Shown here in pieces: positions 5,913 through 43,561 of a stretch of 50,882 nt of DNA. This DNA is from Hyphomicrobiales bacterium (GTDB lineage Bacteria; Pseudomonadota; Alphaproteobacteria; Rhizobiales; Aestuariivirgaceae), in assembly GCA_025363755.1 (NCBI GenBank), contig JANYLQ010000058.1, positions 1 through 50,882 on the forward strand. Direction: 5' to 3'. Numbering within the stretch: position 1 is the stretch's first letter; the number at the start of each line of letters is the position of its first letter. Under the pieces are notes generated by a model. That model was not told the DNA's origin, made no database searches, and worked only from the letters and a program-made list of their open reading frames with translations. Both the position numbers and the translations under genes were made by a program.

Positions 5913-8003
5913 ATGATCCGAGTTGGCGTTGACGTTGGTGGTACATTCACTGACATCGTACTGGAAAAGGCCTACAAAAGGGGGCAGCAATCTATATTCG
6001 TGCACAAAGTTTCATCAACCCCGACGGACCAATCTGTTGGAGTTGTGAAAGGCATCGTCGATATCTGTAAAATGGCGGGGGTTGCACCTAGCACTGTTGA
6101 TATGGTGTTCCATGGCACCACTGTCGCCACCAATATGGTGATCGAACGCAAAGGTGCGGAGGTGGGCATGATCACCACGCGTGGTTTCCGCGACATCCTC
6201 CATATGGCCCGACATAAACGCCCGCACAATTTTTCATTGCAATATGATGTGCCGTGGCAATCCAAACCCTTGGTCAAAAGGCGCAACCGAATTGTAGTGG
6301 ATGAGCGCCTGATGCCGCCTACAGGCGAGGTCGAAACACCGTTGAATGAGCAACAGGTGCGTGAAGCTGCAATGTTGTTCAAGAAGCGCGGCCTCAACTC
6401 CGTGATTGTCTGCTTTCTCTTCTCATTCCTGAATGATGCACATGAGCAAAAAGCCAAAGCCATTGTGCAAGAGATAATGCCCGATGCTTTCGTATCTTGC
6501 TCTTCTGAAGTGGTGAACGTCATTCGTGAATATGAGCGCTTCTCGACAGCGGCGATGAATGCCTATATCGGGCCGCGTACTTCGCTTTATCTGCGCCGCT
6601 TGAAAGACCGGCTGCAGGAAAATGGTGTCAATGCTGCGGTACGTATCATGCAATCCAATGGTGGCATTTCAACCATTGAAAATTCGTCCGTGCGGCCTGT
6701 GGGGCTCCTACTGTCTGGTCCTGCCGGAGGTGTGATCGGTGGGCGCTGGACTGGGGCTGCCTGCAAAACTAAGAATGTGATCACCATCGATATTGGCGGC
6801 ACATCAGCAGATATTTCTGTTATTCAAAATGGCGAATTACGGATTAAAAATCCGCGCGATACCGAAGTGGCCTCCCTGCCCGTTTTGGTGCCGATGATTG
6901 ATATCGATGCCATTGGTGCTGGTGGCGGGTCAATTGCTTATCTTGATCCAGGTGGTGCGTTCCGCGTTGGCCCGCGTTCGGCAGGCGCTGAACCTGGCCC
7001 CGCTTGCTATGGCAAGGGCGGAACGGAACCTGCCGTCACAGATGCGCAAGTTGTGCTTGGTCGACTTGACCCTGAACATTTTCTAGGCGGTGACTTGAAG
7101 ATTGATCTAGGCCTTGCGCACAAAGCCGTGGATCAGCATATTGCCAAGAAATTGGGCCTATCGGTGAAAGATGCGGCCCTTGGTATTTTGAAAGTCGTCA
7201 ACAACAATATGGCGCTGGCGATCAATGGCAATTCGGTGGCCAAGGGCATCGACCCGCGCAACTTCACATTGATGGGATTTGGTGGTGCGGGCCCACTTCA
7301 CGCGACAGCTTTGGCTGAAATGATTCACGCCAAGGATGTGATTGCTCCACTTCATCCCGGCATTACAGCGGCCATGGGCCTGCTTCTCACCGAGCTTCAG
7401 TATGAATTCACGCGTTCGGTTTTGATCGTGGCCGATCAAGCTAGCGACAAGGATTTCGTCGAAGCCAACAAGATTTTGAGTGACCTCAAAAAACTTGCCA
7501 GCTCCCAGCTTACCGCGGATTGCATTGCTGTATCCAAACAGGCATTCACGGCCATCGCTGAATGCCGCTATGTGGGCCAAGGCTTTGAGCTTCGTGCGAC
7601 AATGCCGAAGGAAGCGCTATCCAAAAAGAATATAGGCGCTGTGGTCAAAAGTTTTTATGCAACGCATAAACAAGTCTATGGCCATGCCTTTGACGATCAA
7701 TCTGTTGAAATCATCACCTTGCGTGTTGTAGGCAGTGCAAAGGTTGACACATTGAAATTACCGAACCTAAAAAAGGGCAATCGTAATAATCCGGCCTCTG
7801 CCAAGCTCTATGTGCGCGAGACCGTGTTTGATGATGGTAAATCGGTGAAGACGCCTCGTTATGATCGATCCAAACTGCTAGCAGGTGACAAAATTACTGG
7901 CCCTGCCCTCATCGTGCAGCACAATTCTACCACCTTGGTGCCGCCGAAATATAGAGCCACAGTTCTGGGCCATGGCGACATTCATTTGAGCCGCGGCAAG
8001 TGA
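5913..8003 (+). CDS. hyuA: Hydantoinase/oxoprolinase subunit A (HyuA-type ATP-dependent)
   Basis: A 696-residue ASKHA-fold subunit. It opens with the phosphate-binding VGVDVGGTFTDIVLE, then has FHGTTVATNM near residue 70, SNGGIST, and a second ATPase-like half with ITIDIGGTSADISV at about 290 and GAGGGSIAY at about 335. With HyuB it uses ATP to open hydantoins, N-methylhydantoin or 5-oxoproline. The start at 5913 is preferred over the ATG at 5901 because GGAGG at 5903-5907 sits five bases ahead of it. Its stop is 11 bases before the hyuB start, so the two are co-translated. It differs clearly from the second HyuA at 25.6-27.7 kb. Substrate is inferred from the upstream carbamoylsarcosine-amidase-like gene. 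Confidence 0.9.
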   Translation: MIRVGVDVGGTFTDIVLEKAYKRGQQSIFVHKVSSTPTDQSVGVVKGIVDICKMAGVAPSTVDMVFHGTTVATNMVIERKGAEVGMITTRGFRDILHMARHKRPHNFSLQYDVPWQSKPLVKRRNRIVVDERLMPPTGEVETPLNEQQVREAAMLFKKRGLNSVIVCFLFSFLNDAHEQKAKAIVQEIMPDAFVSCSSEVVNVIREYERFSTAAMNAYIGPRTSLYLRRLKDRLQENGVNAAVRIMQSNGGISTIENSSVRPVGLLLSGPAGGVIGGRWTGAACKTKNVITIDIGGTSADISVIQNGELRIKNPRDTEVASLPVLVPMIDIDAIGAGGGSIAYLDPGGAFRVGPRSAGAEPGPACYGKGGTEPAVTDAQVVLGRLDPEHFLGGDLKIDLGLAHKAVDQHIAKKLGLSVKDAALGILKVVNNNMALAINGNSVAKGIDPRNFTLMGFGGAGPLHATALAEMIHAKDVIAPLHPGITAAMGLLLTELQYEFTRSVLIVADQASDKDFVEANKILSDLKKLASSQLTADCIAVSKQAFTAIAECRYVGQGFELRATMPKEALSKKNIGAVVKSFYATHKQVYGHAFDDQSVEIITLRVVGSAKVDTLKLPNLKKGNRNNPASAKLYVRETVFDDGKSVKTPRYDRSKLLAGDKITGPALIVQHNSTTLVPPKYRATVLGHGDIHLSRGK

Positions 8004-9864: not shown

Positions 9865-10770
9865 TCAAACGACTTCCGGCCGCTTGCCTTCGGCAAATGG
9901 ATAGCGCTTGCGAAAATCAACAGCGATTTCTTCGAAGGTCATCCATTCGGTGCCTTCCTTCTTGTTTATATAATTGATCAGTCGTTCCAGCATCAATAAC
10001 ACCTGCGGTCTGCCACTGACATCAGGATGAATGGTGAAAGCGAACACGGCATAGTCCATATTATCATAAACCCAATCGAACTGGTCGCGCCACATTTCTT
10101 CAATATCACGCGGATTGACGAAGCCGTGGCTGTTTGGCGCCTTCTTCATAAACATCATTGGCGGCAGATCATCCACGTACCAGTTGGCACCGACTTCAAC
10201 GAGATCGATTTCTTTGCCATGGATCATCGGTCTCATCCATTCCTTGGCGGTCTTGGAATAGTCGATCAAATTCCAGCTGTCCCCGACCTTGGCATAGAAA
10301 GGTTGGAAATCGCGATAGCCTTGGCTGTGGTCATATTTGAAGCCATATTTCAACAGCAGTGCTGCGGTGGAATTCGACATTTCCCACCAAGGTGCCACAT
10401 AACCTCGTGGCTTCTGGCCAGAGACTCGTTCAATCAAATCAACGCAATGCGCCAAAACTTCTTCTTCTTGTGTCGGTGTCATAGCTATTGGATTTTCATG
10501 GAGATAGCCATGGGCACCAATTTCATGGCCCTCAGCGGCAATGCGCTTCACTTGATCGGGAAAAGACTCAATTGAATGGCCTGGAATAAAAAATGTCGTC
10601 TTCAGTTTATATTTCTTGAACAAATTCAGCAGGCGAATATTGCCGACTTCGCTGGCAAACACACCACGCTGAATATCAGAAGGCGAGTCTCCACCACCAT
10701 AAGAACCGATCCAACCTGCAACCGAGTCAACGTCTGTACCAAAAGCACAAATTATTTTCTTCTTAGCCAT
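9865..10770 (-). CDS. NodB-fold polysaccharide deacetylase family, imidase/PgdA-like
   Basis: A 301-residue single-domain carbohydrate-esterase-4/NodB protein without a signal peptide. Asp residues of the metal site are in [10 protein letters not shown] (about 10-19), the HxxxH motif is in [14 protein letters not shown] (about 81-94), and YVAPWWEMS near 123 carries the usual conserved segment. The opening [20 protein letters not shown] and [11 protein letters not shown] resemble the subfamily containing bacterial cyclic imide hydrolase and H. pylori PgdA, rather than secreted chitin deacetylases. Being cytoplasmic and last in an amidase-OYE operon, it is more likely a cyclic imide or ureide hydrolase than a cell-wall enzyme. 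It lies 12 bp downstream of the OYE gene. Confidence 0.82.
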
Positions 10771-13320: not shown

Positions 13321-14421
13321 CTATTCCACAATCACCGTTGCACCGTCTTTTTTCCAAGCGATGAAGGCCTCATCGCCTGTAGCAAATCTGCCGCCATATT
13401 TATCGGCATGGCCTTCAAGGCCAATGCTGCGGCCCTCACCCAAGTCCACGTCCATTTGTACAATGTGGCCGATTTTTTGGATGCGGCCAACCTTAACGGG
13501 GATGCTGCATGTTCCATATGTCTTGGTAATTTCGACCTTGGAGGTTTTGGCTGGCAAAAGATCAATTGATTCAGCAGGCAAGATCAAATGGGCTTTTTGC
13601 TTTACAGCTACACCTGCTTGTGCCGTACCCATCAAAGCGCCATAAGGCGTATCCATGGTCACATTTTTACCATCAGATAGGCGCACTGTTCCGGGGATCA
13701 AGGTATTGCGGCCGATAAACTGAGCAACGAATAGACTTTTGGGTCTTGTATAGAGTTCATAGGGCGCACTAATTTGTTCGATGCGGCCTTGGTTCATCAC
13801 CACAATACGATCAGACAAGGCCAAAGCTTCGGATTGCGCATGGGTAACGAACACGAATGTGATGCCCAGAGACCGCTGCAAGAGTTTGAGTTCGTTTTGG
13901 ATGCTCTTGCGTAAATTGGCATCAAGTGCACCCAATGGTTCATCCAGCAAAAGAATGTCAGGCTCAACTACCAGCGAGCGCGCCAAGGCGATGCGCTGAC
14001 GTTGTCCACCTGAAAGGCGATCAGGACGCTGGCTTGCTATGTCGGTGAGGCCCAATGTCTCTAACATGCGGCTGACTTTCGCGTCACGCTCAGCAGGTGC
14101 CATGCCTTTCACATCAAGACCAAAGCCGATGTTGTCGCGCACTGTCATATGTGGAAAAAGCGCATAGTTCTGAAAGATCATCGATGTGGGGCGTTGTTCA
14201 GGCAAAAGATCGTTTATGCGTCTGCCACGAATGGAAATATCACCAGACGATATGTCTTCAAAACCGGCAATCATCCGCAATGTCGTGGTTTTGCCGCAGC
14301 CTGATGGTCCAAGAAAAGCGATGAACTCGCCCTTATTCACATCGAGATTAAAGTCAATTACGGCCGCTGTGCCGTTATCAAACACTTTGCCGACATTTGA
14401 GAGTTGAAGATCGAAGGCCAC
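13321..14421 (-). CDS. ABC transporter ATP-binding protein, PotA-like (second copy)
   Basis: A 366-residue ATPase of the spermidine/putrescine or iron (PotA/FbpC) type. Walker A is GPSGCGKTT (about 38-46), the signature is RLSGGQRQRIALARSL, and Walker B is ILLLDEPLGALD followed by the H-loop VFVTHAQSEAL. A TOBE-like C-terminal domain of about 120 residues follows. It belongs to the same array as the PotA/PotB/PotC genes at 17.2-20.0 kb, so the importer has two different ATPases for two permeases. They may form a heterodimer, or this copy may serve a different pairing. A 68-bp gap with a strong hairpin separates it from the binding-protein gene. Confidence 0.93.
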   Translation of the reverse strand: MAFDLQLSNVGKVFDNGTAAVIDFNLDVNKGEFIAFLGPSGCGKTTTLRMIAGFEDISSGDISIRGRRINDLLPEQRPTSMIFQNYALFPHMTVRDNIGFGLDVKGMAPAERDAKVSRMLETLGLTDIASQRPDRLSGGQRQRIALARSLVVEPDILLLDEPLGALDANLRKSIQNELKLLQRSLGITFVFVTHAQSEALALSDRIVVMNQGRIEQISAPYELYTRPKSLFVAQFIGRNTLIPGTVRLSDGKNVTMDTPYGALMGTAQAGVAVKQKAHLILPAESIDLLPAKTSKVEITKTYGTCSIPVKVGRIQKIGHIVQMDVDLGEGRSIGLEGHADKYGGRFATGDEAFIAWKKDGATVIVE

Positions 14422-14489: not shown

Positions 14490-15722
14490 TTACGCAGACA
14501 AGAATTCATCCCATTTGGAAATGAGGTGATCATACTCATCTGGCCACTGATGCCAGTAGGCCACGTTCTTGGCACGTGTATCGAGCGAGCCGCCGTCGCG
14601 CAGGTCACCTTCCTTAATGCCGCGATCTTCTTTGCCAACCCAAGGCTTGCCTTCATACCAGAAGGCATACTTGTCTTTGTCCATCGCACTTTGGATATTG
14701 GTTGTTGGCGAGTAGTAGCCCTGCTCTGACACTGCAATTGCTGGAGGGCCAGAGAGCCAATAATCGGTGTAGGCCACAACTGCTTCCATGTTTGGCGTGC
14801 CGGTGATAGCCGAGTTGCCGATTGACCAAGCGCGATAGCCTTCTTTGGCCACTGCATATGTGCAGGCCTTGCCTTGGGCCTTAACAGCCATAACAGCGGG
14901 CTGCCAAGCATCGGCGATGATCATTTCACCTGAGGCGAGCAAGTTCACCAATTCGCCGAAATCGCCCCACAAGGCGCGGAACTGACCTTCCTTTTTCTTG
15001 GCAATCAGGAACTTGGCTGCTTCATCAATCGATGCTTTGTCGGGATTGCCTGGATTTGGTACTTTCAAAAGCCCAAGGGCATTCATGGCCAAAACGGCTT
15101 CACCGAAAGCAATCAGTGGGTCGACGTTCAGACCAGTCTTGCCCTTAAACTTCTTATCGAAAATGGCAGTCCAGGTTGAAGCTTCTTCGGCTGACACGAG
15201 ATCAGGACGATAGCCAATGGAGTCGTAGTTGTAGACAGTTGGAACCATCCATAATTCAGTCTGTGCTTCATCTTTCCAAATCTGTCCTACGATTTGAGAC
15301 TTCTTGTCCCATTTGTCAGAACCCTTGGTGAAGGTGTCGCGGATATTGCCCCAGTTCTTCAAAGCTGAAGTGGCAATGGGGGTGATCTTGTTGGTTGTTG
15401 TCACGGCAGGCAAACGTTCACCGATCGTTTCCCACACATCATAGGCTGATGTGCCAGCGAGAAGTTCTGTCTGTGTGTTCGGGAAAATATCGGCTTTGCC
15501 TGATACTGCCTTCACACCGGACTTTGCTTTGAAGTCATTCAGAATGCGTTCTTGTACTGTCACTGAAAGGCCCACAGTGCGCAGTTCTTGATCGGCAAGT
15601 CCTGCTGCAAATGCCTGTTGTGAACCCCAAGGCACACCCACTGACAATGCAGCACCACCAGCAGCGCTCGCAAGGAATTTGCGGCGGTTCAGATGGTAAT
15701 TTCTAATACTATCTATGCTCAT
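14490..15722 (-). CDS. Exported PotD-type solute-binding protein, Tat signal
   Basis: Extracellular solute-binding protein of the polyamine/spermidine (PotD/PotF) class, 410 residues. The N-terminus has a twin-arginine motif in NRRKFLASAAGG, then a hydrophobic stretch and an AFAAG cleavage-like site near residue 39. The mature part begins ELRTVGLSVTVQERIL and contains MVPTVYNYDSIGYRPDLV at about 167, the domain-crossing region typical of the class, and AIFDKKFKGKTGL. It should deliver the ligand to the PotB/PotC-like permeases encoded upstream. Hairpins flank the gene on both sides, which probably allows a higher protein level than for its operon partners. The ligand is unknown; neighbouring amidase and dehydrogenase genes argue for a nitrogenous carbon source rather than a polyamine itself. 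Confidence 0.92.
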   Translation of the reverse strand: MSIDSIRNYHLNRRKFLASAAGGAALSVGVPWGSQQAFAAGLADQELRTVGLSVTVQERILNDFKAKSGVKAVSGKADIFPNTQTELLAGTSAYDVWETIGERLPAVTTTNKITPIATSALKNWGNIRDTFTKGSDKWDKKSQIVGQIWKDEAQTELWMVPTVYNYDSIGYRPDLVSAEEASTWTAIFDKKFKGKTGLNVDPLIAFGEAVLAMNALGLLKVPNPGNPDKASIDEAAKFLIAKKKEGQFRALWGDFGELVNLLASGEMIIADAWQPAVMAVKAQGKACTYAVAKEGYRAWSIGNSAITGTPNMEAVVAYTDYWLSGPPAIAVSEQGYYSPTTNIQSAMDKDKYAFWYEGKPWVGKEDRGIKEGDLRDGGSLDTRAKNVAYWHQWPDEYDHLISKWDEFLSA

Positions 15723-16517: not shown

Positions 16518-17236
16518 AACATCACATCTCCTGAATTGGGGCCTATCGTTTGGCCAACAAAGAGGGAAGCTTGATCAGACAGCAGAAACGCAACAGCGGC
16601 GGCAACTTCCTCAGGCTCTCCGAAGCGGCCCAAGGGTAATTCGGCCGCTTTAGTTTTGCGCCAAGAGTCTGAAAGCCCCATCACCAGTGGGGTGTTTATT
16701 GGGCCCGGGGCCACTGCATTGACGCGTACACCTTGAGCACTCACTTCACGTGCCAAGGATTTCGTCATTCCAATAATACCAGACTTGGCTGCAGCATAAT
16801 GAACAAGCTCTACACCACCAATTTGGCCAAGCTGCGAAGCGATATTTACGATTGAGCCTTTGCCAGCTTTTAACATAGGCTCTAAGACTGCTCGCATCAT
16901 CAAATAGGTGCCGCGTAAATGCACTGCAATCATGCGGTCAAAATCACCAGGCTCTAAATCTACAAATTTGGATTGATGCACATGACCCGCATTGTTCACC
17001 AAATGTGTGCAATCACCAAATTCCGCTTTACAAGTTGCGACAATGACTGACACATCTTTTTCTTCTGAAACGTCGCCACCAGTGGCTTTGACTTTGCCAC
17101 CGATCTCCTTGGCAACTTGTTCTGCAGCTTCCAATCTGAAATCATTGACCAATACGCTATAGCCATCTCGCGACAAGCGATGCGCAATAGCACGGCCGAT
17201 TCCTGAACCTGCTCCGGTGACGATTGCAGTGTTCAT
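16514..17236 (-). CDS. Short-chain dehydrogenase/reductase (SDR) 2
   Basis: A classical 240-residue SDR beginning MNTAIVTGAGSGIGRAIAHR with the cofactor Gly motif. The NNAGHVHQ segment lies near residue 86 and the active-site pair is in VHYAAAKSGIIG near 147. PGPINTPLV and FLLSDQASLFVGQTI complete the fold. Its ends overlap the permease upstream and SDR 1 downstream by 4 bp each, so it is translated as part of the transporter operon. Sequence similarity to SDR 1 is moderate, only family-level by eye, so it is probably not a recent duplicate. Substrate unknown. Confidence 0.92.
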   Translation of the reverse strand: MNTAIVTGAGSGIGRAIAHRLSRDGYSVLVNDFRLEAAEQVAKEIGGKVKATGGDVSEEKDVSVIVATCKAEFGDCTHLVNNAGHVHQSKFVDLEPGDFDRMIAVHLRGTYLMMRAVLEPMLKAGKGSIVNIASQLGQIGGVELVHYAAAKSGIIGMTKSLAREVSAQGVRVNAVAPGPINTPLVMGLSDSWRKTKAAELPLGRFGEPEEVAAAVAFLLSDQASLFVGQTIGPNSGDVML

Positions 17237-18081
17237 CCAATCTCCTCCTGAATGGCAATTTTCTTGGCGCGGCGCACGGAGAGCCCCATCAAAATTGCAT
17301 AAACAGCAAGAAGCGAGAAGGAGAACAGTGTGGTAAGAACACCAAAGGCGAAAATATTGGGGTGAATTTCAACAGCGAATGTGCCGTATATTGCCAAAGG
17401 CAATGTTTGTTCATTGGATGAAAGCAAGGTCCGTGAGAACTCGTCGTAAGAGAGTGTGAACGCAAAGAGCATTGACGACAGAACGCCCGGGAAAATCAAA
17501 GGAAACGTGACTTTACGAAACGTGCGCATCGGTGAAACGCCAAGCGACCACGAGGCTTCTTCGACCGAAGCATCGAACCGATTGAGAATGGCCAGCATCA
17601 CCAGAAAGGCGAATGGGAACGTGTAGACCACATGACTGACAAAGGCTGTGCTCCACCAATGGCGATCCACGTTGAAGATATTTTTCGAAACCAGCGCTAC
17701 GCCGAGGCCGGTCAACAATCCCGGCGTAATCATGCCCAGCACAATAAGGTAAAATACAATGTCAGATCCTTTGAACTTTTTGCGAAACGCTTGAGCCGAC
17801 ATCACGCCAAGGACAGTTGATGTAACCATCGTCATAAATGCGAGGATCAGCGAACGTGTCATTGCCTGTCCAACGGGTAGCGGTGCAACACGCGAAGCTT
17901 CGGTCAAACCAAAGATATGGCGATACCAGTAGGTCGACCATTCAATGATCGGAAATTGCGGACCACCTTCAGGGCCCTGCTGGAAGGACAAGATCGTTAA
18001 AATGAAAAATGGACCGTAGAGGAACAGAATAAACAAAGCCACATAGACAGCGAGAATGGGTTTGAGAACACGGGACTCCAT
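17233..18081 (-). CDS. ABC permease, PotC-like
   Basis: Inner-membrane permease of 282 residues with about six transmembrane segments. The first is VYVALFILFLYGPFFILTIL. The cytoplasmic EAA loop is visible as VEEASWSLGVSPMRTFRKVTF at about 192-212, which docks on the ATPase. The length matches the PotC/YdcV type. It lies 2 bp after the PotB-like gene and overlaps SDR 2 by 4 bp. It works with the PotB-like subunit, one or both PotA-like ATPases and the Tat-exported binding protein to import a small organic solute. Confidence 0.93.
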   Translation of the reverse strand: MESRVLKPILAVYVALFILFLYGPFFILTILSFQQGPEGGPQFPIIEWSTYWYRHIFGLTEASRVAPLPVGQAMTRSLILAFMTMVTSTVLGVMSAQAFRKKFKGSDIVFYLIVLGMITPGLLTGLGVALVSKNIFNVDRHWWSTAFVSHVVYTFPFAFLVMLAILNRFDASVEEASWSLGVSPMRTFRKVTFPLIFPGVLSSMLFAFTLSYDEFSRTLLSSNEQTLPLAIYGTFAVEIHPNIFAFGVLTTLFSFSLLAVYAILMGLSVRRAKKIAIQEEIG

Positions 18082-18083
18082 CT

Positions 18084-18947
18084 TCAGAGTTCCCGTCGCA
18101 AATCAACGATGCGCAAGAATAAGGCAACTACAATCCCCATGACGATGGTGAGGATCACGCCGACGACTGAAGCCAGTGCCCATTTCAATGATCCCACTTG
18201 AGTCACAATAATGTTTCCAAGCAAATTCACCTTGCGGCCCGATAAGGCGGAGGCTGTCGCAAATTCTCCAAGCACCATAACCGAGACAAATATCGCGCCA
18301 ACAACCACGCCTGGCAGGCTGAGTGGAAAAATGATCTTACGGAAAATGCGCCAGAAGCCTGCACCCAAATCGCGCGAAGCTTCAATGATATTGGGATCAA
18401 TGCGGCCCAGCATAAACGCAATCGGCCCCACCATGAACACGCAATAAATTTGCGTCATACCAATAATCACCGAGAGTTCAGTGAACAGCAAGGCTTCGAT
18501 CGGTGCCGAAATAATTCCGAATTTCTGTAGAATAATGTTGATGGCACCTTCTTTGCCCAACATGGGTCGCCATGCCAACACGCGGATCAGGAAGGATGTC
18601 CAAAAGGGGATAACGCAAATCACCAACAAGATGGTGGACAGGGTTTTGTTTTTCACGAACAAGCCCACATAGAGCGCGGTCGGATAGCCAATCACCAAAG
18701 TCGCAATCAAGACAATCAACCAGATGCGCACAGTCGTGAACAAGGAAGTGATATATGTGTCGGATGCAAAAAATTGCTGCCAACTCGCCAATGTCAAAGT
18801 CGATTCAATTTTGAATGTGGTCTGTGTCCAGAATGAAACATAAACGATCATCAAAATGGGTATAACCAGAAACAGCGTCATCCAAATCACACCCGGGGCG
18901 ATGAGCCACCAAGCTGTTGTTGAGGATGTTTTTGCTGGAACTGCCAT
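18084..18947 (-). CDS. ABC permease, PotB-like
   Basis: Inner-membrane permease, 287 residues from the ATG at 18947, chosen because GAGG (18953-18956) lies just upstream. The longer frame to 18989 would overlap the ATPase gene by 34 bp. It has about six hydrophobic segments. The EAA-type loop IIEASRDLGAGFWRIFRKIIF is in the expected place (about 195-215). The first segment (WWLIAPGVIWMTLFLVIPIL) is typical of PotB/YdcU proteins. It is the partner of the PotC-like permease encoded next. Confidence 0.93.
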   Translation of the reverse strand: MAVPAKTSSTTAWWLIAPGVIWMTLFLVIPILMIVYVSFWTQTTFKIESTLTLASWQQFFASDTYITSLFTTVRIWLIVLIATLVIGYPTALYVGLFVKNKTLSTILLVICVIPFWTSFLIRVLAWRPMLGKEGAINIILQKFGIISAPIEALLFTELSVIIGMTQIYCVFMVGPIAFMLGRIDPNIIEASRDLGAGFWRIFRKIIFPLSLPGVVVGAIFVSVMVLGEFATASALSGRKVNLLGNIIVTQVGSLKWALASVVGVILTIVMGIVVALFLRIVDLRREL

Positions 18948-18955
18948 GATGCCCT

Positions 18956-20023
18956 CTAACCAAACACAATTGCATCTTCGGGTTTCCACCGCAGACGATA
19001 AGATTTTTTCGGTTCAAAAGTTTTTGGAGCGCCGTGCGACAGGTGATGTTCAACTTCAATTACCTTGCCTCCTATCGCTTCGAAGAAATACATGATTGAT
19101 GAGCCGAGATATTCGCTGGCTATGAAATTTGCGGGCAGGCTTGGCCCCTTGCCAGCGCTTCCGTCCGAATCAACAGCAACGCGGTCATAGCGCACGGCAT
19201 AGGCAGGATGATCAGATTTGGTTTTTTGGATAAAAGCCAAATCGCCATATTCAGACTTGAACGCAGAGCCAGAAATGCTGCCATCAAACATATTATAGCG
19301 GTTTAAAAACTTCGCGACGTTTGGTGTGGCCGGTTTGCTGTAAACATGGTCAGGATGATCAAACTGTGCGATGTGCCCGCGGTCGAGAACGATCACCCGG
19401 TCACCCATAGCGAGCGCTTCAGTTTCGCTGCCTGTTACATGAAGGAACGTGACACCCAGTCGCTCACGAATGGCGCGCAACTCATTGCGCATGCGACCGC
19501 GCAAGTTTGCATCTAAGGCCCCGAGCGGCTCATCAAGCAAAATCAATTTAGGTTCAGTCACTAAAGTGCGGGCAAGTGCCACGCGTTGCTTTTGCCCACC
19601 CGAAATCTGGCCAACGCCACGCGCACCCAAACCTTCAAGACCTACCAGCTTGATGATGTCACTGACGCGATCTACAATCTCGTCATGCGGCAATGGATCA
19701 TTCCGGTTGGCTAAGCCAAAGCCAATATTGTCAGCCACCGACAGATGCGGGAAGAGCGCAAAATTCTGGAACACAAATCCAATGCCGCGTTCGTGCGCAG
19801 GCAAGGAAGAAACATCGCGACCATTGATTTCAATGCGGCCCTCATCAGGCGTTTCAAAACCGGCGATGGTGCGCAGCAAAACAGTCTTCCCAGAGCCGCT
19901 GGGGCCTAACAGTGAGACATATTCATTGCGTTCGACAGACAGATTTATATTGTCCAAAGCCACGGTCACACCGTAGCGCTTGGACACAGCATCAAGACGA
20001 AAAATGTGAGCTTCTGCTGTCAT
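18956..20023 (-). CDS. ABC transporter ATP-binding protein, PotA-like (first copy)
   Basis: ATPase of 355 residues, first gene of the importer operon. Walker A is GPSGSGKTVL (about 39-48), the signature is QISGGQKQRVALARTL, Walker B is LILLDEPLGALDANL, and the switch His is in FLHVTGSETEAL. Here the usual VTHD/VTHSQ switch reads HVTGSETEA: the His sits before Val-Thr and the canonical position is Gly. That is worth noting, because the second ATPase in the operon keeps a normal VTHAQSEAL. In asymmetric ABC dimers one degenerate switch site is common. A TOBE-type C-terminal domain follows. The probable promoter and tandem operator lie at 20024-20258. Confidence 0.92.
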   Translation of the reverse strand: MTAEAHIFRLDAVSKRYGVTVALDNINLSVERNEYVSLLGPSGSGKTVLLRTIAGFETPDEGRIEINGRDVSSLPAHERGIGFVFQNFALFPHLSVADNIGFGLANRNDPLPHDEIVDRVSDIIKLVGLEGLGARGVGQISGGQKQRVALARTLVTEPKLILLDEPLGALDANLRGRMRNELRAIRERLGVTFLHVTGSETEALAMGDRVIVLDRGHIAQFDHPDHVYSKPATPNVAKFLNRYNMFDGSISGSAFKSEYGDLAFIQKTKSDHPAYAVRYDRVAVDSDGSAGKGPSLPANFIASEYLGSSIMYFFEAIGGKVIEVEHHLSHGAPKTFEPKKSYRLRWKPEDAIVFG

Positions 20024-20188
20024 CTTCCAAACCGCACTTGGGTGTTTTCACCCTTTAGAACGGCTTACCTCCTGCTTCGACACTAGGCCTCATTTTTGTT
20101 GTACTCATGGCGTTGAGCGCACAAAAACTTGTAAAGAAGCTAAGCAAAAATGACTAATGTATGCAAGGTAAATTTTATTGCTATATTT

Positions 20189-20229: not shown

Positions 20230-20259
20230 AAAATGCCTAAAGTATTCATGATGCATTTT
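20230..20259 (-). terminator. Weak terminator-like hairpin after the GntR gene
   Basis: AAAATGC (20230-20236) pairs with GCATTTT (20253-20259), a 7-bp AT-rich stem with a 16-base loop touching the GntR stop codon. The minus-strand tail after the stem is only modestly U-rich, so termination here is likely to be partial at best. Confidence 0.3.
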
Positions 20260-21254
20260 TATTTGATCTTGGTGAGGTACGGAACTGTCAACCGCGACTC
20301 GCTGATAACGGCCACGATTTTCAATCGCGCCAAAGATTTTTGTGCCATTACTTTCAAATGGTTCTCGAGATAATCAGCGGCGGGATCAATCAAGCGCCGC
20401 TCGATCAGTCGGAAAAGTGAACGATATTCATCCGCGGCAAAACGGTCGCGCGGCAGGCCTAATTTGGTCAGAGCGCGGTTGGCCGCCAAAAGCGGCAATT
20501 GGATATTGCGAATTACCGCAATCATTTCGGCATTGGGAACTTTGGCAATGCAGGTGTCCATCAAGGCCTGTTCGAAATCTTCGGTCTCGCTAAATTCACT
20601 TGTTCCCTCGCTTGCTAAGCGACTGAGTCGTTCCACTGCGGCATAGTCAATCGCAGGGGCCGCCAGCTTGAGTGCAGCTGGTTCAAGTATGCTTCTAATC
20701 GCAAAACGCTCACGTACAGATTGGGCTGTCAGAGGACCTGCGATCCAATGTGAACTCTGATTTTTGCGAATGAGGCCGCGCTCGTTCAATCGACTTAGAA
20801 CGTCGCGTACGACGGTGCGGCTTACGCCCAAATGTGCGCTAAGCTCAGTTTCAATGATACGAAACTCTCCAAAAATCAGACTAGAGGCTACAGCCTGTTC
20901 CACTTGATCATAGACTTGCTCCCACATGCTACGGCTTTGCAGGGCTTCATCGATTTCATCAGGGACATGCAAATCAAGTGAACGAATGTCGAGGCGTCTT
21001 GGACTGGTTAAAGCGGTGCCCTGCCCGACCATAAAACCACGGCCATCAAACCGTTGGATTAACTTTTCTTCTTCCAACATTTTCAGCGCCATTTGCACCG
21101 GCGCCCGGCTCGATTGCATCAACTCCGCAATTGGCCCCTCCAACAACACAAAACCTTCGGGGAGTCGACCAGAATGAATATTGTTGCGCAGCACACGGCT
21201 GATCAACTCATAGCGCTTTTGCGTGGATGGCTTTTCGCCGGGCTGGGATATCAT
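20259..21254 (-). CDS. GntR/FCD regulator with two tandem winged-helix domains
   Basis: Transcription factor of 331 residues from the ATG at 21254, which overlaps the stop of the upstream binding-protein gene as ATGA. Most FadR/FCD regulators have one N-terminal winged helix and 220-250 residues. Here two are seen. The first (about 13-77) has YELISRVLRNNIHSGRLPEG, SRAPVQMALKMLEEEKLI and RGFMVG. The second (about 108-172) has WEQVYDQVEQAVASSLIFGE, GVSRTVVRDVLSRLNERGLI and HWIAGPL. A helical FCD ligand domain (about 175-310, with RSILEPAALKLA) follows. The first helix-turn-helix is less canonical and may bind DNA weakly or dimerise. The operon position and the repeat at 20189-20224 suggest control of the Pot-type importer operon. 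Confidence 0.85.
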   Translation of the reverse strand: MISQPGEKPSTQKRYELISRVLRNNIHSGRLPEGFVLLEGPIAELMQSSRAPVQMALKMLEEEKLIQRFDGRGFMVGQGTALTSPRRLDIRSLDLHVPDEIDEALQSRSMWEQVYDQVEQAVASSLIFGEFRIIETELSAHLGVSRTVVRDVLSRLNERGLIRKNQSSHWIAGPLTAQSVRERFAIRSILEPAALKLAAPAIDYAAVERLSRLASEGTSEFSETEDFEQALMDTCIAKVPNAEMIAVIRNIQLPLLAANRALTKLGLPRDRFAADEYRSLFRLIERRLIDPAADYLENHLKVMAQKSLARLKIVAVISESRLTVPYLTKIK

Positions 21255-22483
21255 GGCGCTACACCCCTCACGCGCTCCACAAAGCGCCCCCAAGCGCGTG
21301 CCGCATAATTATGCTCATCCATAACTGTGTTCCAAACAGCGATGCGGTTTGTGCGCTCAAGATAAGCCCCGCCAGATCGGCGTGCACCCAATTTCACAAC
21401 TGTTTGTCCTGCCGGTCCCAAGAGATCAGATTGCGCTTCTTCACCATTGTACCAATAAGCCCACTCATCGTCGTTAAGATGCGCGTGCACAGGATCAATC
21501 ACAGACATGTAATAGCCTTGCCGCGCCATCACAGCGCCAGACCAACCTGTGAGCCACCAGTTCATATATTCATAGGCCATGTCGAGCGTGTCGCCGCTCA
21601 AACCATGACGCAGGCTCATGCCGCCATGCCAAGCGCGATAGCCTTCCATCGGAACGGCTTCAATGAAGTGTGGGGTCTCGCCGCCAAGATCGCCATAAGC
21701 TGGCGACCACATGCTTTGCACATCAATGCGGTGGTCGCGTACCAATTGACCAGCATCAGCTGCCGACTTCCACATGGTGTGGAAATAGCCCTTCTGACGC
21801 TTGTCTTCCAGCAGCGCCATTAGGGCGTCAATTTCAGCAACCGTCATGTTGCCGACATCTGCAAAGGAAAGCGCGCCTGCGGCTTCAGCAGCCAAGGCGG
21901 CATCAAACAACCCAATTGCTGGTTCATCCACCAACGCAATGCGGCCTTTGGCGCGCTCATCAAAGAGCCAGGCCCAACTTTCAGACTGCCGTTGCGAATA
22001 ACCAAACACGCGGGCATCATAGCCAAAAGAGTCGAGATTATAGACAGTGGGTAACATGCTGATGTGGCGTTGCGGTTCCGAGCCCAGTGAATCGCCCGGT
22101 TGCACATAAAGTTTTTTCACTGGCGCATCACCATGACCGCGCCAAGCATAGCGGCTGATGCCGCCGCGCTTAGTAAGGTCGCTTACCTTGTCCCATAGCG
22201 TGATGCGCTGCGTATCTATCGGTTGCAGTGAACCCCAAAACCACACAATATCAAGATTGTGAAAACACTGGTCATAGACATCATATGTTTGCGGCGACAA
22301 GGCCGCTTTACCCTGGCAGGTCAGAAAATCCAGAACTTCGAATTCCAAATCAAAGCCCAGATCAGCCTCGGCCTTTTTCTTCACCTGATCCAGCAGGGTG
22401 ATGGCCGTGCCCAAAACACGCAGCTTCCTCCGGCCTTTTATAGCTGGCGAAGCAAGATCAGGCGTTATGTTTTTCGGTGACAT
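21251..22483 (-). CDS. PotD-type solute-binding protein lacking a signal peptide
   Basis: A 410-residue type 2 periplasmic-binding-protein fold of the spermidine-binding class. The domain starts almost at the N-terminus, KLRVLGTAITLLDQVKKKAE from about residue 20, preceded only by a polar SPKNITPDLASPAIKGRR leader with no hydrophobic core, Sec or Tat signal or lipobox. SMLPTVYNLDSFGYDARV at about 142-159 parallels MVPTVYNYDSIGYRPDLV of the exported relative at 14.5-15.7 kb. Only 12 bp separate its ATG from the previous stop, so a hidden signal sequence upstream is excluded. It overlaps the GntR gene by 4 bp. It may be a cytoplasmic ligand sensor or carrier; alternatively it is exported by an unrecognised route. 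Confidence 0.88.
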   Translation of the reverse strand: MSPKNITPDLASPAIKGRRKLRVLGTAITLLDQVKKKAEADLGFDLEFEVLDFLTCQGKAALSPQTYDVYDQCFHNLDIVWFWGSLQPIDTQRITLWDKVSDLTKRGGISRYAWRGHGDAPVKKLYVQPGDSLGSEPQRHISMLPTVYNLDSFGYDARVFGYSQRQSESWAWLFDERAKGRIALVDEPAIGLFDAALAAEAAGALSFADVGNMTVAEIDALMALLEDKRQKGYFHTMWKSAADAGQLVRDHRIDVQSMWSPAYGDLGGETPHFIEAVPMEGYRAWHGGMSLRHGLSGDTLDMAYEYMNWWLTGWSGAVMARQGYYMSVIDPVHAHLNDDEWAYWYNGEEAQSDLLGPAGQTVVKLGARRSGGAYLERTNRIAVWNTVMDEHNYAARAWGRFVERVRGVAP

Positions 22484-25615: not shown

Positions 25616-27694
25616 TTATCTCTTCCCCGTAATCACATAAGACCCCGTTGCATCCAACACGGCCACCCATTTCGGCTCAATCACTATAGTTGTCGTAACT
25701 TCCTCAATGATGGCTGGCCCCGTGATCTTGGCCCCGGCCCCTAAGCGCTCGCCATCATAGATCGGCGTTTTTGTGGCTTTGCCCGAGGCTTCGAAGATGG
25801 CTTTGCGATAGCCCTTAAGGGCTTTGGCTGCTGTACCGCCCTTGGCGTATTTCGGCAGCTTGGGCTTTTCGATTTTGCCATAGATGGTGGATTCGATGTT
25901 GACAACCTCCACAGCATTGTGGGGTTCGGCATAAGTGTAAAGTTCTTGGTGGCGTTTGTGGAAGGCAGTTTGTAATTTTCCGATAGATTTTTCGTTGATC
26001 TCAAATTTGCCAATATCCACCGTGCATTCGTGCACCTGGCCCACATAGCGCATTTCCATGCTACGCTTGATCTCGATGTCTTTCTTAACAAAGCCGTCGG
26101 CCAACAAATGTTTCATGCCTTGCGTCTCAACCTTCGCAAACAAACTGTTGAGCTTTTTGCAAGATTCCACGTTGTCGAGTTTCGCTGGCGAAGTTGCCAT
26201 ATAATTATATTTCACGTCAGAAATAATTTGACCAAAGGCACAAAGGCCCGACGCAAGTTTTGGCAGGATGATCGTCTCAATGCCCATCTCGCGCGCCAAT
26301 GATGTGATGTGTGCGGCGGTGGCCCCGCCGGCGCCCACCAACACAAAGTCGCGTGGGTCATAACCGCGCTCGACCGACACGCGCCTGATGCCATTGACCA
26401 TGTTGTTGTTGACGATCGTGAACATGCCATAAGCGGCACGCTCCACAGACATGCCCAATTTGGTCGCCACTTTTTTCACCGCAGCCGTTGCCTTGGCCAC
26501 ATCGAGCGGCAGCTTGCCGCCAAGCAATCCTTCAGGATTGAGATAACCCAACACCAAGTTTGCATCCGATGTGGTGGCTTCGGTGCCGCCTTGGCCATAG
26601 CAGGCGGGGCCAGGTTCAGAACCTGCAGATTGCGGGCCCACTTGCAATATGCCGTGCGCATCAATCCAGCCAATCGAGCCGCCACCTGCACCCAGCGTTT
26701 CGACCTGAATCATAGGAACTCCAATGCGATAGCGCAAGAAGTCAATGTTCTTGTTGAGATTGGTTTGGCCATCTTTGGTGAGTGTGATGTCAAAAGATGT
26801 GCCACCCATATCAACGGTGATCACATTCCTTTTCTTGAACGGAGCAGACACATAAAGCCCCGCTTGCGGCGCTGAGGCGGGGCCAGAATTGATGGCATAG
26901 ACCGAGCGGTCGGTCATCGCTTGGCCAATGGCGAGACCACCATTAGATTGGAAATAGCGGACCGGCTGTTTGGCCCCCAGAGATTTGAAATAGGCGTCGA
27001 CGGCGGCCACATATTTCCGCATTACAGGAGCGAGATAGGCATTCACCACTGCGGTTGACGTGCGGGTATATTCGCGGATCTGCGGATAGAGTTCACTGCC
27101 CACTGTGAGAATGGCATTCGGCATGATTTCACGCACGATGGCAGCAGCGCGCAATTCATGGGCAGTGTTGAGCACTGACCACACAAATGAAATGGCAACC
27201 GTCTCCACACCTTCTTTCAAGAACAATTCACAAGCCGCACGCACATCTTCCTCATGCATTGCTGTGCGGATTGATCCGTCAGAAATCACACGTTCCCGAA
27301 CCCCACGCCGCAAATAGCGCGGCACCAGCATGGTGGCGGCGGGATATTCGGGGTCATAGCGGAAGCCATCTTCCTTGTGGCCATTGCGGATTTCAATCGA
27401 GTCCTCATGGCCTGCCGTGCAGATCAGCCCGGTCTTGCCACCACGATGGGTGATCAGTGCGTTCAAGCCCACCGTCGTGCCATTGATGCAAAGATCGCAG
27501 TTTGAAACAATATCTGAGGCCGCAACGCCAAAAGCATCGGCGATTAATTTCAAACCATTCTCAATCGCCTTGGTGGGATCAGTTGGTGTAGACAGCGCCT
27601 TGAACAGTTTCACTTTGCCGTTTTTGCGATCAGCAACTACAAAATCAGTGAAAGTGCCGCCAGCATCAATGCCAAGGCGATATTGACTTTTCAT
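25616..27694 (-). CDS. hyuA: Second hydantoinase/oxoprolinase subunit A
   Basis: A 692-residue HyuA-type ATPase subunit opening YRLGIDAGGTFTDFVVADRK. It has INGTTVGLNALITHRGGKTG near residue 70, FQSNGGLAIGQ, ITVDMGGTSFDITLTKDG at about 290 and GAGGGSIGWIDAHG. Its sequence is clearly distinct from the copy at 5.9-8.0 kb, so the pair arose by an old divergence or separate acquisition. Gene order is inverted relative to that pair: here subunit B precedes subunit A, with an ATGA overlap. It is followed after 41 bp by the acyl-CoA dehydrogenase gene. Probable role: ATP-dependent opening of a hydantoin, oxoproline or related lactam, or, in the acetone-carboxylase-like branch, carboxylation. The former is preferred. 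Confidence 0.88.
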   Translation of the reverse strand: MKSQYRLGIDAGGTFTDFVVADRKNGKVKLFKALSTPTDPTKAIENGLKLIADAFGVAASDIVSNCDLCINGTTVGLNALITHRGGKTGLICTAGHEDSIEIRNGHKEDGFRYDPEYPAATMLVPRYLRRGVRERVISDGSIRTAMHEEDVRAACELFLKEGVETVAISFVWSVLNTAHELRAAAIVREIMPNAILTVGSELYPQIREYTRTSTAVVNAYLAPVMRKYVAAVDAYFKSLGAKQPVRYFQSNGGLAIGQAMTDRSVYAINSGPASAPQAGLYVSAPFKKRNVITVDMGGTSFDITLTKDGQTNLNKNIDFLRYRIGVPMIQVETLGAGGGSIGWIDAHGILQVGPQSAGSEPGPACYGQGGTEATTSDANLVLGYLNPEGLLGGKLPLDVAKATAAVKKVATKLGMSVERAAYGMFTIVNNNMVNGIRRVSVERGYDPRDFVLVGAGGATAAHITSLAREMGIETIILPKLASGLCAFGQIISDVKYNYMATSPAKLDNVESCKKLNSLFAKVETQGMKHLLADGFVKKDIEIKRSMEMRYVGQVHECTVDIGKFEINEKSIGKLQTAFHKRHQELYTYAEPHNAVEVVNIESTIYGKIEKPKLPKYAKGGTAAKALKGYRKAIFEASGKATKTPIYDGERLGAGAKITGPAIIEEVTTTIVIEPKWVAVLDATGSYVITGKR

Positions 27695-29451
27695 ATTGGC
27701 AACCCGGCGCGCAATTGTTGGGTCGCTGCGTCATCAATATGCAAAACCGCATTCAGCACCACGCCATAATCTCGGCGAGCGCCCTCAAGCGAAACCAAGC
27801 CATTCTTCACATCCCACACCACCTTTTCGATTGGCCGCTCGAAGGGATTGCCATAGCCACCACCGCCCGGATTTTTATTGGTGATGGTTTGACCGGGGGA
27901 AATATTTTCCATCACATTGGTGCGAACAACTTCAGTTTTACCGTGGCGCTTGAATTCAACGCGGCCCACTTTTTCATCAACCATGGCAGACACGGCACCT
28001 GCCGCTCCCATAGCTGGAATACGGCGGCCTTCGCCGAAGCCAATGCACAGCATGTCTTTGTCGAGCGGTTCCACTTCCCAGGCGGTTCCCGAACCACCGC
28101 GGAATTTTCCAGCGCCACCTGAGTCTGTCATCAAGCCATATCTGTGAATGATGATGGGATAGGAATATTCGAGAAGTTCCACATCGCCGGATGTGAGCGC
28201 GCCGAAACAACATTCCGGCCCCACCGCATGCCAGCCATCTTGCTGCGGTGTGGCACCGCCACCAGAGATGATGGTGGCCAAAACCATGGTGACAAACTCT
28301 TCATTGCTGCGCGTATCCCAGCCTGCAATGTTCAGCCCATTCGCATGGCCCCAGCTCGCCGCCACTTTTGATGGCATGGCTTTTTCGAAGGCCAGACGCA
28401 CGGCATCGGTCAGGGTTTCCATTGGCGTTGTGGTACAATTCATGTGGGGTGCCGGTTCAGCCGCATTGCATATCGTGCCCTTCGGTCCGAAATCCAGCGA
28501 CACGCAGCGATAGAGCCCCTCATTGTAAGGCGGAGGCAAAGCCGCAAACATCATAAGCCCGAGATAAACCCCAGAATGCGAATTGCCTTCATAGGAATTG
28601 ATGAAGTAAGGAATTTGCGGCGGGCTTTTAATGGCGATGTGACAGGTATCTTTTTTGATCGTTACGGTGGCGGTGATATCAAAATCACCAAAGCCATGGC
28701 CAGCATCTTCCAGAATGGCTGTGCCAGAATAGGTGCCATCGGGCACCGAGGCGATCAGCAAGCGCATATGCTGATCGGCCATATCCAAAAGCTCGTTGAT
28801 GCAGGCATCTACCGCAGGCTTGCCATATTTATCGAGCATCGCCAGCAAATTGCGCTCGCCCACTTGGCAGGCCCCAATTAGCGCATTGAAATCCCCTTCT
28901 TGATCACGCCTGGCCCGCATGTTGGTGAAAATCATATTGAGCACATCTTTTCTCGGCTTGCCCATGTCCCAGATTTTTACGGGCGGAATGCGCAAGCATT
29001 CAGCGTAAATATCTTTGGCAGCGGGGTTATAGCCCGCAGGTACTGGCCCACCAATGTCGGTCAAGTGGCCTTTGCACACTGTCCAATAGACCAACTCACC
29101 CTTGTAAAACACTGGTTTATACATGCAGGTATCAATTGCGTGGCTCCCGCCAAAGGCGGGATCATTATGCAGAATTAAATCGCCATCATGAATATCGCCC
29201 ACAAAAAACTTGGCGACGGATTTCATTGCGGGCATAAGCGAGCCCAAGTGAATTGGAATATCTTGCCCCTGCAGAATCATTTCCGGCTTTGCGTTAAACA
29301 GAGCCGTTGAATAATCATGTGCCAAATTAAACACCGATGAGCGCGCGGTTTTTTCCAACGCCAACGTCATCTCGCGCTGCGTGGTTTCAAGAATGCCCCG
29401 TATCACTGAAAGAGTAATAGGATCAACTTTAGATTTGCGCTTGGCAGCCAT
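27691..29451 (-). CDS. hyuB: Second hydantoinase/oxoprolinase subunit B
   Basis: A 586-residue HyuB-type subunit. A short basic leader AKRKSKVDPITLSVIRGILE starts the fold. LILHNDPAFGGSHAIDTC (about 90-107) and GHLTDIGGPVPAG (about 123-135) carry the His/Asp motifs. GGAGKFRGGSGTAWEVEPL and KNPGGGGYGNPFERP occur near the C-terminus. The start at 29451 is supported by GAGGGAAG six bases upstream. It is the first gene of the large minus-strand array; its promoter must lie in 29452-29604, shared with the divergent dehydrogenase gene. Confidence 0.88.
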   Translation of the reverse strand: MAAKRKSKVDPITLSVIRGILETTQREMTLALEKTARSSVFNLAHDYSTALFNAKPEMILQGQDIPIHLGSLMPAMKSVAKFFVGDIHDGDLILHNDPAFGGSHAIDTCMYKPVFYKGELVYWTVCKGHLTDIGGPVPAGYNPAAKDIYAECLRIPPVKIWDMGKPRKDVLNMIFTNMRARRDQEGDFNALIGACQVGERNLLAMLDKYGKPAVDACINELLDMADQHMRLLIASVPDGTYSGTAILEDAGHGFGDFDITATVTIKKDTCHIAIKSPPQIPYFINSYEGNSHSGVYLGLMMFAALPPPYNEGLYRCVSLDFGPKGTICNAAEPAPHMNCTTTPMETLTDAVRLAFEKAMPSKVAASWGHANGLNIAGWDTRSNEEFVTMVLATIISGGGATPQQDGWHAVGPECCFGALTSGDVELLEYSYPIIIHRYGLMTDSGGAGKFRGGSGTAWEVEPLDKDMLCIGFGEGRRIPAMGAAGAVSAMVDEKVGRVEFKRHGKTEVVRTNVMENISPGQTITNKNPGGGGYGNPFERPIEKVVWDVKNGLVSLEGARRDYGVVLNAVLHIDDAATQQLRAGLPI

Positions 29452-41515: not shown

Positions 41516-41519
41516 AGCG

Positions 41520-41756: not shown

Positions 41757-41774
41757 TTTTGTTCCTCGTAAATT

Positions 41775-42503: not shown

Positions 42504-42614
42504 CGGAATAACCCCAAACTTCTCACAGCGGATATTTATGGGTGAGAATCCGTTGAACGGCAAGTAGCTGGATTTTCATTGGGCGCATAAACTTCTTTGC
42601 TGTGGAGAACAGCC

Positions 42615-43544
42615 TCAGCTTGCGCCTGCAAAATATTTGAGCGACCGCGCCAAATCTTCCTCACGATAGCCACGGCCAATCACCACAATTGTGTTGTCTT
42701 CCCTGCTCTCTTGCTCTGGTAGAATTTCAGGTGATTGCGCGATTTTCCGCACTGTTTGCACCAACAGCCGTCCTGCGGGTGTGCGCACCACGCCCTTCAC
42801 GCGCATGATGTCATTGCCTCGGGCGTGGAGCAAAGCTGAAAGCCAAACGCTGAAGCTGGTCCAATCGACTGTTTCATCAAGAGCCAGTTTGGAGGGGAAA
42901 ATCGGCGACAATGCTTTTTCATTCAAAACTTCAGCCAGATGTTCAGGCTCAGACTGATCAAAATCTGGCAAGGGAACTTCCGTACCTTTCACGGTGCCAA
43001 AGATTTGTGCGCCCGGATTGATCACATGTAACGTTGCCAGCAAGCGCGCAAGATCATCTGGATTGGCCTCATCGATTTTAGATACCATCATGCAATCGGC
43101 AATCTCAATTTGCTTTCGCCCCAAAGGCTCGCTGCGCAATTGGATAAGCGCATGCAACGCATCCACCATCACCAAAGTTTCACTGACGATGATGTGATGC
43201 ACAAGAATGGGATCAGTGCGGATCGCTTCGACAATCGGGCCGGGGTCAGCCAAGCCGCTGGTTTCCAAAACGATGCGCTCGAGCCTGTCTTCCGTTTGCG
43301 AGCTTCGCTCATCACAAATTTTGCGCAACAGTGCGATGAGATCAGCTTTGCCCACACAACAAGCGCAGCCACCTGCGAGAACTGCAAGGTTCGATGAGCC
43401 TTGCAGCAAAGCATCATCCACCGGTGTTTCAGCTGCTTCATTTACAATCACAAAGGCCCCTTTGAAAACGCCTTCGTGCAATTGATGGCGCAGCCAAGTG
43501 GTTTTTCCAGAACCCAGAAAACCACCCAGCACCGTCATGCGCAT
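42615..43544 (-). CDS. COG0523/CobW-type metallochaperone GTPase
   Basis: A GTPase of 309 residues from ATG 43544, preceded by AGAAGG at five bases; an in-frame TTG at 43559 is less likely. The Walker A motif is VLGGFLGSGKTTWLR. The metal-binding CxCC is in AGGCACCVGKADL (about 60-72). SGLADPGPIVEAI follows the switch region, and the G4-like SKID is in MVSKIDEANPD. The C-terminal CobW_C part has FSVWLSALLHARGNDIMRVK. COG0523 proteins deliver Zn, Co or similar metals to partner enzymes. The partner may be one of the PxpABC/amidohydrolase proteins encoded downstream or the small Cys protein upstream. The 111-bp gap to pxpA may hold an internal promoter. Confidence 0.9.
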   Translation of the reverse strand: MRMTVLGGFLGSGKTTWLRHQLHEGVFKGAFVIVNEAAETPVDDALLQGSSNLAVLAGGCACCVGKADLIALLRKICDERSSQTEDRLERIVLETSGLADPGPIVEAIRTDPILVHHIIVSETLVMVDALHALIQLRSEPLGRKQIEIADCMMVSKIDEANPDDLARLLATLHVINPGAQIFGTVKGTEVPLPDFDQSEPEHLAEVLNEKALSPIFPSKLALDETVDWTSFSVWLSALLHARGNDIMRVKGVVRTPAGRLLVQTVRKIAQSPEILPEQESREDNTIVVIGRGYREEDLARSLKYFAGAS

Positions 43545-43561
43545 GCGGCCTTCTGACAAGT

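Follow-up and report, generated by a model that had tools for sequence, protein, structure and literature searches.

A signal-less PotD/PotF-fold protein as a possible cytosolic sensing partner of a double-winged-helix GntR regulator

Solute-binding proteins are described as extracytosolic, and a genome survey reports that ~1% of the automatically retrieved sequences were predicted to be cytosolic, that signal-less sequences went to manual curation, and that cytosolic single-domain proteins with other functions were noted (PMC9602780). Several binding proteins are known to sense. NspS is a PotD-like periplasmic sensor paired with MbaA, a membrane cyclic di-GMP (c-di-GMP) enzyme (PMC9993111), CuaD is a co-sensor with a histidine kinase in the CuaD-CuaSR system (PMC10384115), and TorT-TorS, LuxP-LuxQ and XylFII-LytS likewise join binding-protein co-sensors to kinases (PMC6321045). 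Here we describe PBPcyt, a PotD/PotF-fold protein without a signal peptide, encoded in a 50,882-bp stretch of a Hyphomicrobiales genome (GCA_025363755.1, contig JANYLQ010000058.1; the whole stretch is called the window), where its gene overlaps that of a GntR regulator.

The comparisons below suggest that PBPcyt receives a ligand in the cytosol and acts as the sensing partner of the double-winged-helix GntR/FCD regulator of its cluster, an interpretation offered tentatively and with a confidence just short of even. It is based, at the sequence level, on the missing signal, the membership of one old group, purifying selection, co-distribution with GntR, kinase-linked kin, and clusters that lack an ATP-binding cassette (ABC) transporter. 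A binding protein of a type normally found outside the inner membrane appears to be kept inside the cell in a whole bacterial branch. The initial annotation had proposed a cytoplasmic co-sensor that hands its ligand to GntR or is read by it; either could apply, and the co-sensor role is favored by the old signal-lessness, the tracking by GntR, the kinase-linked kin and the ABC-less clusters, while the tight pairing it assumed is not general.

Fold, signal-lessness and ancestry of PBPcyt

PBPcyt has the two-lobed type II binding-protein fold, and searches of Pfam and NCBIfam identified no family for it and matched no enzyme family. Its ATG is preceded by a 12-bp spacer and only three open codons, too little to encode a signal peptide; the frame is closed further upstream and no hydrophobic stretch is present, so the export signal of PotD/PotF-type proteins is absent, as first annotated. 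The homologues in L026 and L027 start two codons past a stop, directly at the first strand. A scan took, for each row, the highest hydropathy of any 14 residues upstream of the fold. It is at least 1.17 in the 42 rows classed as signal-bearing, most of which have a twin-arginine-like motif, and at most 0.66 in 44 of the 46 signal-less rows; in the two exceptions, L015 (1.06) and L023 (1.14), the stretch lies upstream of the start judged likely. A signal intact in close relatives would have pointed to a simple N-terminal loss, and none of the relatives examined above ~44% identity has one. The ratio of nonsynonymous to synonymous substitution rates (dN/dS) between the window and L004 is 0.060 for PBPcyt and 0.025–0.059 for five other cluster genes, rough values given that dS exceeds 1. 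By this estimate, PBPcyt is under purifying selection.

The homologue sample consists of 43 loci from one genome-contig scan and more from family, class and phylum searches. In an 86-row tree, which left out L047, L056 and L058 as copies or short sequences, the window and the other 44 signal-less rows group together, requiring one change (support 86/57), and a core of 42 is supported at 100/99; L067 and the weak PotD-like rows L059–L066, L068 and L069 were not treated as members. A 124-row quick tree, which took 5 of the 33 rows of PBPtat, the cluster's presumed transport receptor, also needs one change for its 50 cytoplasmic rows (support 76). Signal-lessness is, on this sampling, an old and shared trait and not a recent loss. 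One signal-less row comes from a contig filed as Halothiobacillus (L034) and falls within the Roseobacter group, perhaps through misbinning of the contig or transfer.

The nearest kin of PBPcyt is a kinase-linked group (L039, L041, L042 and, from genomes of the same phylum, the 29 regions L162–L189 and L195). Its 32 rows in the 124-row tree, and their union with the cytoplasmic rows (82 rows), each reach 100 in the Shimodaira-Hasegawa-like approximate likelihood ratio test. The N-termini of this group are signal-like, as scored by hydropathy for L039, L041 and L042 and by eye for the rest. A sensor-kinase gene directly follows the binding protein in 31 of the 32 loci, a count in which the L182 stretch holds only the sensor part of the kinase and L042 ends too soon to judge; the kinases of L039 and L041 contain Pfam HisKA and HATPase_c domains, and queries with these two kinases found no match in the window, where no sensor-kinase gene adjoins PBPcyt. 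More distant relatives, where seen in context, lie mostly in ABC operons. The kinase-linked proteins are themselves a large group of signal-bearing PotD-fold proteins upstream of often hybrid histidine kinases, without ABC gene matches beside them, and a brief search of the open-licence literature found no description of it.

Residue conservation separates a shared core from a cytoplasmic-type set. E280, G281, R283, W285, Y325, W344, R369, G371, G372, R377 and W384 are common to the cytoplasmic, kinase-linked, ABC and Tat (twin-arginine) groups. Q72, F74, H75, N76, D78, E390, H391 and N392 reach 94–100% conservation among the 50 cytoplasmic rows; the other groups differ at these positions, except that the kinase group keeps Q72 and the ABC and Tat groups keep E390. 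The W-F-D of PotF aligns with W285-H-G287, so the acidic residue after the pocket Trp is absent; a polyamine receptor was discarded as a reading of PBPcyt because this W-x-D is not kept. H75 and N76 align with PotF Y87 and F88, in a part of the alignment without a significant score.

Association with the GntR regulator and its candidate operator

The regulator is present in 47 of the 50 searched genomes with the cytoplasmic form vs. none of the 33 with the kinase-linked form, although E-value cut-offs were unequal among the genome sets. In the window's family (69 genomes, E<=1e-20), GntR occurs in exactly five genomes, the same five that hold the signal-less protein, and in none of the eight with only an ABC-type relative (E<=1e-50; G003, G014, G016, G018, G020, G040, G051 and G054). 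Among the 35 genomes searched for L011–L046, it was found in 30 of 32 with the cytoplasmic form and none of three with the kinase-linked form (1e-15); for the L046 genome the match reaches only 32% and could represent a different paralogue, and the L019 genome lay outside the search, its locus holding the start of a GntR gene. GntR is also present in six of seven extra cytoplasmic genomes (1e-10), inside the locus in all six of L005–L010, and in none of 30 further kinase-linked genomes (1e-15), with the query that gave matches in the other three genome sets. By these counts, GntR follows the distribution of the signal-less form among genomes.

Three features of the initial annotation are confirmed, namely the overlapping stop and start (ATGA), the paired winged helices and the presence of one FCD domain. 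PF00392 matches the window GntR with 75.2 bits over two stretches and PF07729 with 24.3 bits, at its cut-off; these domains, together with a fold match, place the protein in the FCD/FadR family, whose usual single winged helix is here doubled. This doubling is not special to the pair. A second GntR with two winged-helix matches is encoded in the same genome (L258, positions 6642–7553, minus strand) beside an ABC operon that reads as sugar-type, and four further paralogues, from other genomes (L237–L240), are unlinked, in that no PBPcyt occurs within the regions fetched around them; the double winged helix was accordingly rejected as a mark of the PBPcyt–GntR pair.

Three histidines coordinate a metal in TM0439 and Ps5454, and E. 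coli FadR lacks this site (PMC7674646). At the three aligned places the window GntR has M232, Y277 and H299. The complete triad is present in 11 of 51 GntR rows, namely the four paralogues and seven mostly basal rows whose genomes hold PBPcyt; the remaining 40, window included, lack at least the first His. These rows were drawn from 98 loci with a GntR match, of which 77 had full-length coverage, and were then de-duplicated. As the FCD domain of the window GntR lacks two of the three usual metal His, ligand recognition may have passed to PBPcyt.

A candidate operator for the regulator lies in the leader of the ABC1 gene, where TGCATACATTAGTCATTTT and TGAATACTTTAGGCATTTT, 83 bp apart, are the sole matches in the window at up to three mismatches. 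Shuffled sequence gave a mean of 0.28 matches and at least two in 3 of 100 shuffles, for a pattern drawn from these very sites. Within the window's group, 8 of 10 loci have the sequence TTGCATAC between GntR and ABC1, and a related site occupies this gap in 15 of 25 further loci (P<=0.02 from single-base shuffles, uncorrected and not independent).

A putative mechanism can be outlined. PBPcyt would bind a compound in the cytosol, either an imported substrate or, more likely, a pathway intermediate; closed and liganded, it would contact GntR; and this contact would change the grip of GntR on the bipartite operator before the catabolic and transport operon. The loop after strand 69–73 of PBPcyt differs from that of PBPtat, so sensing of an intermediate fits better than sensing of the imported compound. 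The cluster enzymes suggest that the sensed compound belongs to the cyclic amides or N-heterocycles. It is also possible, although the opposite seems somewhat easier to believe, that a formerly periplasmic kinase sensor, or a relative of one, came to the cytosol by signal loss and switched its partner to a one-component GntR. The two proteins would then form a cytosolic ligand receptor in which a detached binding-protein sensor is read by a DNA-binding protein, the latter having had its own effector site decay in the core lineage.

Evidence against a partner sensor, and rival explanations

Several results count against PBPcyt as the sensing partner of GntR. Of 51 loci, only 13 have GntR within 300 bp of PBPcyt and 36 have CobW directly upstream of it; in these counts L021 and L046 stop 8 and 143 bases ahead of PBPcyt, L001 covers just 4.2 kb, and their farther neighbours are unseen. 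Adjacency to GntR occurs in the window's group and in the separate basal rows L029, where both CobW and GntR adjoin, L118, and L243, where GntR is on the opposite strand; in other relatives, where visible, GntR is mostly a divergent gene at the cluster's opposite end. Strict adjacency was therefore dropped, and the association with GntR exists at the level of genomes. Translational coupling fares similarly: the ATGA overlap recurs in L004–L008, L009 overlaps differently, the genes are apart in L010, and elsewhere the arrangement is not general. Three PBPcyt genomes have no GntR match (L021, L044 and G768), and no convincing operator candidate was seen in 10 of the 25 further loci, in three clusters with a major facilitator superfamily (MFS) permease, or in L243. 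Since both genes belong to one catabolic cluster, of which GntR is probably the regulator, co-occurrence need not mean contact. In a mirror-tree analysis of the 25 loci holding all ten genes, the PBPcyt–GntR partial correlation (0.45, without a significance test) is the highest for PBPcyt but only fifth of 45 pairs; that of GntR–ABC1 is higher (0.468), and the raw PBPcyt–GntR value of 0.968 equals that of PBPcyt–ABC2 (0.969). The seven GntR rows from PBPcyt genomes that keep all three His imply that the supposed sensor shift does not apply throughout. E. coli FadR, also without the metal site, binds acyl-CoA, so the effector site of GntR has changed but is not necessarily dead. Finally, the 124-row tree settles no order among the basal cytoplasmic (7), kinase-linked and core cytoplasmic (43) lineages, and a single signal loss is therefore not proven.

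What PBPcyt does in the cytosol could also be explained in other ways. Enzymes on a binding-protein fold exist, such as MqnA/MqnD and yeast Thi5, and PBPcyt might be one, with F74, H75, N76, D78, H391 and N392 catalytic on a pathway intermediate; their near-invariance in the cytoplasmic rows and difference in other groups fit this, as do the surrounding enzyme genes, the frequent CobW neighbour and the persistence of PBPcyt without an ABC transporter. Yet E280, G281, R283, W285, Y325, W344, R369, R377 and W384 of the core occur across all four groups, plain binding proteins included, the closest relatives are binding proteins linked to kinases, and no enzyme family is matched, which makes an enzyme unlikely. 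A metal module is less probable again. Here PBPcyt, CobW and a small CxxC protein would equip the metal-dependent, deacetylase-fold PDA-type enzyme, with the pocket holding a metal or a chelate, as the His residues special to the cytoplasmic group and the 36 loci with CobW directly upstream, most with the CxxC gene and PDA shortly before CobW, would allow. However, in the window's group PBPcyt stands beside GntR instead of CobW, which lies ~11.9 kb off in L119 and L120, ~0.5 kb off on the other strand in L010 and ~20 kb off in the window, and has no match within 10 kb in L012; CobW could moreover serve PDA without PBPcyt.

Slightly less probable still, PBPcyt might serve as a buffer or carrier in the cytosol, keeping the imported compound for the cluster enzymes without any regulatory role. 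The conserved binding-protein core, and the presence of PBPcyt in clusters both with and without an ABC transporter, agree with such a role, but it leaves unexplained the kinase-linked kin and the adjacency to GntR in the window's group and the separate basal rows. A misread start, a recent signal loss or a decaying transporter gene deserves next to no credence: a short N-terminal remnant, xAPAI..., does resemble the residues that close the signal region of relatives with a signal, L041 among them, but the closed frame, the signal-less relatives and the purifying selection documented above speak against these.

PBPcyt is probably not a transporter part either, because some clusters keep it with an MFS permease in place of the ABC transporter. 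In L242, L244 and L246, GntR is accompanied by amidase, PDA, permease, two short-chain dehydrogenases/reductases (SDRs), CobW and PBPcyt, with a CxxC match as well, and the cluster ABC genes have no match within these 16.5–19 kb stretches. Pfam assigns the permeases of L242 and L244 to the MFS, and that of L246 is placed there by sequence resemblance only; a generic ABC ATPase match (31%) occurs ~5 kb past PBPcyt in G612 (L194), outside the L244 stretch. In the window, the cluster's ABC transporter has its own Tat-type receptor, PBPtat, and given the MFS clusters an ordinary second receptor of this transporter is the less likely reading of PBPcyt. A reduced set of GntR, CobW, PBPcyt and an asparaginase-like gene is found in L026 (7679–12185), with no permease or PBPtat match in the 21-kb locus.

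Gene cluster and comparison with known systems

The features of the window are listed in Table 1. On the minus strand the gene order is HyuB, HyuA, acyl-CoA dehydrogenase-like, CoA-transferase-like, MaoC-like, PBPcyt, GntR, a 235-bp gap and the ABC operon, which runs ABC1, two permeases, two SDRs, PBPtat, ABC2, amidase, OYE-like and PDA; the names HyuA, dehydrogenase, CoA-transferase and SDR were assigned by reading of the sequences. PBPtat begins with a twin-arginine-like signal, NRRKFL..., as judged by eye, and the PDA homologue in L015 has a Pfam Polysacc_deac_1 match. The HyuA/HyuB pair occupies 25616–29451 (minus strand), and HyuB scores 1089 bits against a caprolactamase beta model, above the cut-off of 1000, a hint that lactams or cyclic amides are catabolised. 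Farther along this strand, a 5-oxoprolinase-like set (CT_A_B, CT_C_D, biotin carboxylase and LamB/YcsF) lies at 38306–43867 beside CobW and a small CxxC protein, and these last two are related to the pair adjoining PBPcyt in other genomes. A HEPN_AbiV-domain protein (PF18728, 59 bits; 35579–36793, minus strand) is a possible abortive-infection defence gene.

Table 1. Positions of the genes, domains and candidate sites in the window.
Feature	Position	Strand	Remark
PDA, PuuE/polysaccharide-deacetylase-like enzyme	9865..10770	-	PuuE model 75.5 bits, below cut-off
ABC2, second ABC ATPase	13321..14421	-	
PBPtat, cluster binding protein, presumed transport receptor	14490..15722	-	28% identical to PBPcyt
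ABC permease 2	17233..18081	-	
ABC permease 1	18084..18989	-	
ABC1, ABC ATPase with TOBE_2	18956..20023	-	
Candidate operator copy 1, ABC operon leader	20147..20165	-	TGCATACATTAGTCATTTT
Candidate operator copy 2	20230..20248	-	TGAATACTTTAGGCATTTT; 83 bp from copy 1
GntR regulator, two winged helices and FCD	20259..21254	-	331 aa
GntR FCD domain	20352..20705	-	aa 184–301; M232, Y277, H299 at the three usual metal-His places
GntR second winged helix (PF00392)	20757..20921	-	34.3 bits
GntR first winged helix (PF00392)	21027..21212	-	46.7 bits
ATGA stop/start overlap, PBPcyt to GntR	21251..21254	-	
PBPcyt, signal-less PotD/PotF-fold solute-binding protein	21251..22483	-	410 aa
CobW-type GTPase	42615..43559	-	~31% identical to the L015 CobW directly upstream of PBPcyt

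Among the open-licence papers listed in searches on cytosolic binding proteins paired with regulators, on binding protein–kinase pairs and on duplicated winged helices in FCD regulators, none was seen to describe this arrangement, in which a PotD-type protein lacking a signal accompanies GntR. If PBPcyt does act as proposed, it would illustrate how a module for sensing can move across the membrane and take on a new output partner, and how a one-component regulator can sense via a separate receptor protein. Among regulators of the FCD/FadR family, such as TM0439, Ps5454 and DgoR, the window GntR differs in its extra N-terminal winged helix and in having one of the three usual metal-binding His left. 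On the side of the binding protein, E. coli YdcS, PotF and PotD share 13–17% identity with PBPcyt and are periplasmic by their entry titles. NspS resembles the role proposed for PBPcyt in being a PotD-type protein that senses; however, it is periplasmic and signals to a membrane protein, whereas PBPcyt is signal-less with a cytosolic transcription regulator as its likely partner, and the acidic residue two positions after the Trp in PotF is G287 in PBPcyt. The binding protein–kinase systems are echoed in the kin of PBPcyt, whose binding-protein gene directly precedes a kinase gene, but their binding proteins act outside the cytosol, unlike the signal-less PBPcyt with its GntR-bearing genomes. 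The LysR- and LacI-type regulators also combine a cytosolic binding-protein-like sensor with a DNA-binding domain; in them sensor and helix-turn-helix form one fused protein, whereas PBPcyt is a separate protein beside an FCD regulator.

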